This document shows, one piece after another, positions 37,074 to 38,225 of a stretch of 64,000 nt of DNA. The stretch is from Candidatus Melainabacteria bacterium (lineage in GTDB: Bacteria; Cyanobacteriota; Vampirovibrionia; Obscuribacterales; Obscuribacteraceae). The stretch lies in NCBI GenBank assembly GCA_003963305.1, contig RXJR01000004.1, positions 184,562 to 248,561 of the forward strand, read 5' to 3'. A model generated the notes under the pieces. The model was not told the origin of the DNA and searched no databases. It worked only from the letters and a program-made list of their open reading frames with translations. The translations under genes and the position numbers were made by a program. Positions within the stretch are counted from its first letter, which is position 1, and each line of letters starts with the position of its first letter.

Positions 37074-38225
37074 ATGAAAACTGGCAAAGTAATAATTGGA
37101 GCGAACTACGGTGACGAGGGCAAAGGCCTGTTCACTGATTACTTTGCCAGCCAGGCACCGGAAGATTCGCTGGTCATCAGATTCAACGGGGGCGCACAAG
37201 CCGGACACACAGTAGTATCACCAGACGGACGTCGACACGTCTTCAGTCATTTCGGCAGTGGAACATTGCTCGGGGTGCCCACATTCTTAAGCAAGTTTTT
37301 CATAGTCAATCCACTCATATTCGTCAAGGAATACGCAGAGCTGGCGCAGGTATCAGAAACTCCTCCAGAAATAACGATAGACCCAAACGCATTTCTGACG
37401 ACGCCGTTCGATATGTTCATCAATCAAACAATCGAAAAACAAAGAGCAGGAAAACGCCACGGCAGCTGTGGACTTGGCATCAACGAGACGGTCACGAGAT
37501 CGTTGCGTTCACCTCAGTATCGATTGAAGTCCTGTGACGTACTGAATTCGACCGGACTGCGCCGAAGGTTACATGAACTCAAAGATTCCTGGTTCAAAGA
37601 CCGTCTGATCGAGCTGAAACTAGACCCAATGGAGGAAGGTATTCAGAAATTTGTAAACAACACAGATCGCATCATAGAAGAATATATAAAGGACACGCAG
37701 ACGCTTATCGACCTCGCAACAATCAGCGACCGAATTCCGCCAGTCAGGCAAGTGCTATTCGAAGGCGCTCAGGGATTAATGCTCGACGAAGACCGAATCG
37801 ATCAGTTTCCGCACGTAACACGCTCGAAAACTGGTCTGACAAATGTTCTGCATCTTGCTCCCCAATTCGGAATAGAAAAACTGTGTGTTACTTATGTCAG
37901 CCGCACATATTTAACGAGGCATGGCGCTGGTCCGCTGGAAGGAGAATCAGACTGGACACTGCCTGACAGCACGAATATTCCGAATCAATTTCAAGGCACT
38001 CTGAGATTTGCCCCCCTCAGCCTGCCGGCGCTGGAGCAAAACATCGAATACGATCTCCATCGTGCCAAAAACACTGAACTCGACATCTCCGCAGACCTGG
38101 CGATGACATGCGCCGACCAGGTGCCGGTACCAGATACACGCCGAATGTTTTTAACGCTTAAACATGTCAGCTTCGGTCCAACACGGTCATCCGTCTGTCA
38201 AGCATTATCCAGTTCGATGCGCTAG
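37074..38225 (+). CDS. Short adenylosuccinate-synthetase-like enzyme (PurA/PurZ superfamily)
   Basis: A 383-residue member of the GTP-dependent adenylosuccinate synthetase superfamily (E. coli PurA has about 430). The catalytic core is kept: GDEGKG (13-18, with the catalytic-base Asp), AGHT (43-46, catalytic His) and EGAQG (230-234). The nucleotide loop reads HGSCGLGINET where housekeeping PurA has GTTGRGIGPAY. The aspartate-loop region is TRHGAGPLEGE instead of TRVGAGPFPTE. The base-recognition TKLD is replaced by TCAD, and most of the segment before the terminal GPTR is deleted. These departures recall phage PurZ and suggest a different substrate. AAAGGAGGA precedes the ATG. It ends the vWA/J-domain operon rather than a purine operon. 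Confidence 0.82.
   Translation: MKTGKVIIGANYGDEGKGLFTDYFASQAPEDSLVIRFNGGAQAGHTVVSPDGRRHVFSHFGSGTLLGVPTFLSKFFIVNPLIFVKEYAELAQVSETPPEITIDPNAFLTTPFDMFINQTIEKQRAGKRHGSCGLGINETVTRSLRSPQYRLKSCDVLNSTGLRRRLHELKDSWFKDRLIELKLDPMEEGIQKFVNNTDRIIEEYIKDTQTLIDLATISDRIPPVRQVLFEGAQGLMLDEDRIDQFPHVTRSKTGLTNVLHLAPQFGIEKLCVTYVSRTYLTRHGAGPLEGESDWTLPDSTNIPNQFQGTLRFAPLSLPALEQNIEYDLHRAKNTELDISADLAMTCADQVPVPDTRRMFLTLKHVSFGPTRSSVCQALSSSMR

Follow-up and report, generated by a model that had tools for sequence, protein, structure and literature searches.

A bacterial and phage gene cassette pairing a VWA-domain protein with a divergent adenylosuccinate synthetase paralogue

The DNA analysed here, referred to hereafter as the window, is a stretch of 64,000 nucleotides from a contig (RXJR01000004.1) of a Candidatus Melainabacteria bacterium of the order Obscuribacterales. 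It carries a cassette of three genes in the order J-domain protein with a predicted pseudokinase domain, VWA protein and adenylosuccinate synthetase (AdSS) paralogue, separated by gaps of 2 bp and 55 bp with the AdSS gene last. Each of the three genes has a good ribosome-binding site, and the cassette is flanked by genes for a fatty-acid desaturase and an HtrA-type protease. The features of the locus are as follows.

34847-34875, forward strand: weak sigma-70-like promoter match, TTGACA-17-TAGTAT, upstream of the cassette
34958-34979, no strand assigned: perfect 8-bp inverted repeat, CTGACACT-ACTTAC-AGTGTCAG, 45 bp before the first cassette gene
35025-36098, forward strand: J-domain and kinase-fold protein of about 357 amino acids (profile matches, alignment)
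36101-37018, forward strand: VWA/I-domain protein of 305 amino acids (phrog_2971, structure model, homologue alignment)
37074-38225, forward strand: AdSS paralogue of 383 amino acids (open reading frame, Pfam, trees, residue mapping, structure model)

The first gene starts with GTG behind the Shine-Dalgarno sequence GGGGAGGA (35011-35018), its reading frame being open from a TTG at 35004. The product matches the profiles of StkP (E=1.7e-9) and DnaJ (E=2e-6), keeps the HPD motif in its J domain and is tied by profile searches to phrog_3043; Pfam DnaJ is matched by 34 of the 45 family members. The kinase-fold domain is predicted to be a pseudokinase, because Asp occupies the HRD position in only 9 of the 45 members and GGW replaces DFG in nearly all of them. 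A tblastn comparison of this protein with phage proteins gave no match at an E-value of 0.01. The inverted repeat upstream is possibly an operator, or else a terminator for the opposite strand. Sigma-70-like promoter matches are no commoner in the cassette region than in shuffled sequences. Rfam gave no match at 33-40 kb of the window.

The second gene, preceded by the Shine-Dalgarno sequence AAGGAG at 36087-36092, matches phrog_2971, a family with unassigned function (E=3e-43), and a Pfam search with its product matched no family, VWA included. The predicted model (pLDDT 88) has a VWA/I-domain fold and superposes on integrin beta I domains with a Z score of 15.8 and an rmsd of 2.9 over 191 residues, and the Foldseek and VIA structural lists held no better relative than these integrin-type I domains. 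A MIDAS-like DxTGS motif is found at D63-S67, with D63, T65, G66 and S67 invariant among 55 sequences; VWA domains typically bind peptides through the metal site (PMC7159879). The protein starts with Met-Gly, Gly2 being present in 465 of the 466 homologues with a readable start and lying in a conserved patch with W/F/Y6 and W/Y11. The start codon was ATG in 168 of the 175 homologues checked at the codon level.

The third gene opens with ATG behind a strong Shine-Dalgarno sequence, AAAGGAGG, at 37062-37069 and is intact, coding for a protein with the AdSS fold. GDEGKG and AGHT are retained, and GTTGRGIGP is replaced by GSCGLGINE, TRVGAGPFPTE by TRHGAGPLEGE and TKLD by TCAD; every motif change listed in the earlier note is thus present. 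The same note had described the segment before GPTR as nearly absent, and the distance from TxxD to GPTR is indeed 20 residues (D348-G368) against 83 (D333-G416) in E. coli PurA. This protein is as long as its nearest relatives; the C-terminal shortening is most marked in it and its close kin, and the family median is 403 amino acids compared to 432 for PurA. Pfam AdSS is matched with E=6e-43 and aligns only to residues 6-292; the NCBIfam PurA equivalog scores 117 bits (cut-off 402) and the curated PurZ model NF038379 scores 42.9 bits (cut-off 300). The top viral family is phrog_1211 (E=3e-60), which bears the label '2-aminooxy adenylosuccinate synthetase'. A decayed or frameshifted PurA, or sequencing errors, were ruled out as explanations since the motif changes are conserved family-wide, in about 150 homologues.

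An active-site profile was constructed by mapping 156 family members to the residue numbering of E. coli PurA. The residues of phosphoryl transfer are kept almost throughout (D13, K16, H41 and T239 in 155 and Q224 in 156 of about 156 members), with the catalytic Asp13, Lys16 and His41 found in 155 of the 155 aligned members as well as in the protein from the window. In AdSS structures the 5'-phosphate of IMP is held by Asn38, Thr129, Arg143 and Thr239. In the family Asn38 is replaced by Gln in 150 members of about 156, IGTTG reads HGSCG (H126 in 149, S128 in 153 and C129 in 130 of 156) and Arg143 is without conservation. Arg131 has given way to V, L, M or I across the family, Val273 to His in 156 of 156, Lys331 to Cys or His in 152 of 156, and the pair Thr300-Thr301 to an aromatic residue (F, W or Y at position 300) followed by Gln, Gln301 being present in 155 members of about 156. 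A single Arg is left from the 303-306 Arg run (R311; 150 members of about 156), and its E. coli counterpart depends on the alignment, as loop 298-306 is one residue shorter through an indel. R303 of E. coli PurA touches the O2' of IMP and the free aspartate (PMC8342488). The protein from the window carries L, Q, F-Q, T and C at the positions of Arg131, Arg143, Thr300-Thr301, Arg303 and Lys331, respectively, with the Arg303 equivalence alignment-dependent. Judged from these substitutions, the AdSS paralogue is a predicted enzyme with its phosphoryl-transfer machinery kept and most of its L-aspartate and IMP 5'-phosphate ligands lost; an aspartate site of a different build is conceivable. The predicted model (pLDDT 95) fits ligand-bound AdSS best, with a Z score of about 38 (38.7) and an rmsd of about 2.5 over about 343 residues, and gives Z scores of about 31-33 against PurZ, the lower score partly reflecting the length of the targets.

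The linkage of the AdSS paralogue to the VWA gene is conserved far beyond the window. VWA and AdSS lie on one strand in 463 of 463 two-gene loci, with AdSS downstream in 461, a set that includes many re-fetched contigs and corresponds to 311 VWA-AdSS pairs distinct by sequence. When loci were seeded with AdSS, VWA was present in 75 of 78, within 600 bp upstream in 66 and elsewhere in the locus in 9; of the three loci without it, one begins at a contig edge and in another the upstream sequence runs to only about 1 kb. When 84,980 species genomes were scanned with the VWA profile, at least 533 confirmed relatives emerged, the best 80 of which come from the Cyanobacteriota/Melainabacteria, Pseudomonadota, Actinomycetota, Acidobacteria, Chlorobiota, Bacillota, Thermodesulfobacteriota, Myxococcota and Bacteroidota, and a similar scan of viral sequences yielded 468 relatives. 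Using tblastn, the AdSS-VWA pair was detected in mycobacteriophages of the Bxz1 type (about 188 records) and in phages of Rhizobium and Vibrio; plasmids of Agrobacterium, Acetobacter, Rhodococcus and Tsukamurella carry AdSS along with the genes upstream of it. The two-gene core occurs in Bxz1-type mycobacteriophages and Vibrio phages, and it is also found in Rhodococcus, Clostridium and Massilia. Within the host's own order the VWA gene was detected in 10 of 53 genomes, in one of them as a weak fragment, and all nine genomes with a clear cassette-type AdSS match were also VWA-positive; such a patchy spread is expected of an accessory system. No natural VWA-AdSS fusion protein was found in the homologue set, and in a co-variation analysis of the two proteins (mean-field DCA, 305 pairs, Neff 247) the best inter-protein pair ranked only 99 overall, so that no signal between the proteins rose above the ranks of pairs within them. 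The two proteins could act in one pathway without touching each other.

The genes around this core vary. Among loci with sufficient sequence, the J-domain pseudokinase precedes VWA in 58 of 76 bacterial ones and in 152 of 363 viral ones, the latter being less than half with duplicates counted. In several phages its place before VWA is taken by a Met-rich protein of 200-300 amino acids without a clear Pfam domain, a family seen in at least 8 loci (for example L003:4054-4767, L004:3717-4544, L010:4495-5103 and L165:6065-6973). Related viral contigs (L100, L101, L105, L117 and L125) carry two extra genes between VWA and AdSS, order and strand being unchanged, and on Agrobacterium vitis plasmids (L006:8480-15035) the cassette is immediately followed by genes for an AAA ATPase, DUF5682 and DUF4132, an arrangement not recurrent elsewhere in the set. 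None of the PADLOC models was matched by any of the three cassette proteins.

A Nudix gene adjoins the cassette in 35 of 80 bacterial loci (about 40%), divergent and directly upstream in 29 of the 35, and the Nudix members sampled carry the NrtR winged helix. This arrangement suggests that the cassette is induced by ADP-ribose or a related nucleotide. No Nudix regulator adjoins the cassette of the window itself, despite the candidate-operator repeat at 34958-34979. Genes resembling nicotinamide phosphoribosyltransferase (NAMPT) lie near seven viral copies (L098, L139, L140, L145, L154, L155 and L166), and the neighbourhood of the copy in Vibrio phage phiKT1024 also includes a protein annotated as NADAR and a TROVE protein (L003:3032-3682 and L003:9403-10911). 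The Nudix-HTH regulators, together with NADAR and NAMPT near some phage copies, hint at a tie to NAD or ADP-ribose metabolism. Nudix regulators and vWA parts have been described in other ADP-ribose systems, distinct from the VWA-AdSS cassette (PMC9503650).

Phylogenetic relationships were inferred from two maximum-likelihood trees of 73 and 62 rows, both of which contain long branches. In both trees a branch with 100/100 support, recovered in 100% of bootstraps, sets the cassette AdSS sequences apart on one side. When Pyrococcus horikoshii PH0438, a partial sequence and the one archaeal short AdSS in the tree, was added, PurZ joined it (97/91) and the cassette clade stayed apart. An AU test did not reject a joint side of cassette AdSS and PurZ (p=0.39). 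On these sequence trees it is not in doubt that cassette AdSS and PurZ form separate clades, whatever their exact branching order. A phylogeny with PurA and PurZ had been proposed in the earlier note, which expected a protein unlike housekeeping PurA and resembling PurZ; the first expectation agrees with the trees and the second does not, with the AU result above to be kept in mind. That note had also proposed a search for a separate full-length purA, and one was located in the same genome (G000:C23:38108-39373; 599 bits). Likewise, all 35 other cassette-carrier genomes checked contained a full-length purA, scoring 540 bits or more. Identity with housekeeping PurA was rejected on the clade of its own and the second purA in the genome. 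In a 735-kb uncultured phage (L221; LR756503) the AdSS was placed among housekeeping PurA, in neither the cassette clade nor PurZ.

The earlier note had further raised the possibility of a PurZ-like enzyme that makes 2-aminoadenine nucleotides for modified DNA. Two observations are in keeping with it: PHROG and RefSeq label several relatives '2-aminooxy adenylosuccinate synthetase', and Lys331 is missing from both PurZ and cassette AdSS. Against these stands position 13, which is Ser in all six PurZ/PurZ0 sequences compared and Asp in the cassette members; Ser replaces Asp13 in 147 of 147 phage PurZ sequences (PMC12884076). The protein scores 43 bits against a PurZ cut-off of 300, the phage relatives reach at most 56 bits, and the tree with the archaeal short AdSS groups PurZ with that sequence. 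A DatZ-family gene had no match in the organism's own genome, and neither a DatZ-family gene nor a family A polymerase was found in three of the four cassette phages; in the fourth, RHph_TM30, both are present, far from the cassette. Asp13, the model score, the tree and the gene content together led to rejection of the PurZ reading, which is regarded as very improbable indeed; for the same reasons a genome built with 2-aminoadenine is not to be expected, and neither the PurZ-likeness nor the modified base suggested earlier is upheld. RefSeq and PHROG give the '2-aminooxy' name to the cassette AdSS of Bxz1-type mycobacteriophages and Rhizobium phages (for example L005:6992-8320 and L004:6001-7251), and these names are probably wrong, as the proteins keep Asp13 and fall outside PurZ, and three of the four cassette phages lack a DatZ-family gene and a family A polymerase.

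The anatomy of the cassette, i.e. gene order, linkage and a clade of its own, is almost certain. The reading preferred for its function, to which a probability of about 0.45 is assigned, is that of a laterally distributed cassette whose AdSS paralogue couples an activated nucleotide to an amine other than aspartate, with the VWA protein as presenter or acceptor. The paralogue would carry out the first half-reaction, an NTP-dependent phosphorylation of the 6-oxo group by means of Asp13, Lys16, His41 and Gln224, and the activated 6-oxopurine-like nucleotide would then be joined to some amine that is not free L-aspartate. A different amine, and perhaps a different nucleotide, would be used because the residues that bind aspartate and the 5'-phosphate are replaced by another conserved set. 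The VWA protein may present the acceptor through its Mg-dependent peptide site, or may itself be the acceptor through its near-invariant N-terminal Gly, which removal of Met would expose as a free amine. The J-domain pseudokinase may recruit Hsp70 or gate the complex, and would be dispensable since many phages are without it. A narrower form, in which the paralogue links a purine nucleotide through the activated C6 to Gly2 of VWA, a protein amine replacing that of aspartate, is considered improbable; if true, it would be a new nucleobase-to-protein modification common to bacteria and phages.

Several rival explanations for the same locus were weighed. The AdSS paralogue may produce a free amino-substituted purine nucleotide that serves as a signal, antimetabolite or cofactor, with the VWA protein and the pseudokinase controlling or sensing it; a nucleotide signal, mentioned in the earlier note, is possible in this sense. 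The retained AdSS fold and catalytic residues, the nearby Nudix-HTH regulators of a family known to sense ADP-ribose, and the occurrence of NAMPT, NADAR and further nucleotide genes close to phage copies are consistent with such a product. However, no receptor or effector gene recurs next to the cassette, and synthesis of a small molecule alone leaves the near-obligatory VWA gene unexplained, so that this explanation is held to be possible, if somewhat unlikely. A specialised isozyme that converts IMP and Asp to adenylosuccinate under regulation by VWA and the pseudokinase, supplying more adenine under stress or infection, would fit the retention of Asp13, Lys16, His41, Gln224 and Thr239, the best superposition of the model on AdSS (Z about 38) and the frequent boosting of nucleotide pools among phages. 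It is nevertheless unlikely, given that other conserved residues have taken the place of Arg131, Arg143, Thr300/301 and most of the Arg303-306 run and that purA is already present in every carrier checked.

The divergence of the substrate-binding residues, and a cassette partner that is also a predicted pseudokinase, would likewise agree with a catalytically idle AdSS fold which binds nucleotide and serves the VWA protein as sensor or scaffold. About 155 members have the catalytic Asp, Lys and His without exception, however, which is unusual for a pseudoenzyme and makes this quite improbable.

The VWA-linked AdSS subfamily occurs in large phages and, across many phyla, in hundreds of bacteria, and is partly mislabelled in phage databases as a 2-aminoadenine enzyme. 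Identifying what the cassette AdSS joins would bring to light a new purine reaction, together with a system carried by phages and bacteria alike, and the occurrence of the two-gene core in easily grown phages and bacteria makes the proposal directly testable. Searches of the open-access literature retrieved work on PurZ and on vWA conflict systems and no VWA-AdSS cassette, and neither the combination nor the AdSS subfamily was found as a named entity in Pfam, NCBIfam or PADLOC. The folds of the parts are known; the combination and the subfamily appear to be undescribed in the open-access literature searched, and the reaction is inferred.

Among known systems, housekeeping PurA (PF00709, TIGR00184) shares with the cassette enzyme the fold, the P-loop GDEGKG, Asp13/Lys16/His41, Gln224 and Thr239. 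The cassette AdSS differs in the loss of Arg131, Arg143, Thr300/301 and most of the 303-306 Arg run and in the changes of Lys331 to Cys or His, Val273 to His and Asn38 to Gln, as well as in its separate clade, its shorter C-terminal region, its operon with VWA and its coexistence with purA. PurZ/PurZ0 (succino-2-amino-deoxyadenylate synthetase) resembles it in the AdSS fold, the short C-terminal region, the missing Lys331 and the PHROG 1211 label, whereas PurZ has Ser13 and Val273, clusters with the archaeal short AdSS and is accompanied by datZ, mazZ and dpoZ. The archaeal short AdSS of P. horikoshii (PH0438) is also without the long C-terminal insertion, but it keeps IGTTGSG, TRVGAGPFP and TVTGRRRR, and the tree, in which it is the one archaeal row, places it outside the cassette clade. 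The same cassette is present in the Bxz1-type mycobacteriophages (phrog_2971/phrog_3043 genes) as J-kinase, VWA, a small gene and AdSS, annotated there as 'hypothetical' and 'ser/thr kinase' beside 'PurA' with no function assigned, and the kinase-like protein likewise lacks the catalytic HRD Asp. The Nudix/vWA ADP-ribose systems and the MoxR-vWA ternary systems have in common with the cassette a Mg-dependent peptide-binding VWA, a Nudix-HTH regulator and chaperone-type partners (PMC9503650, PMC7159879). A MoxR AAA+ ATPase gene was found neither beside the VWA gene of the window nor among the recurrent neighbour clusters. Neither an ARG glycohydrolase, a MoxR ATPase nor a variable effector was seen with the cassette, in which the AdSS paralogue is instead the constant enzyme.
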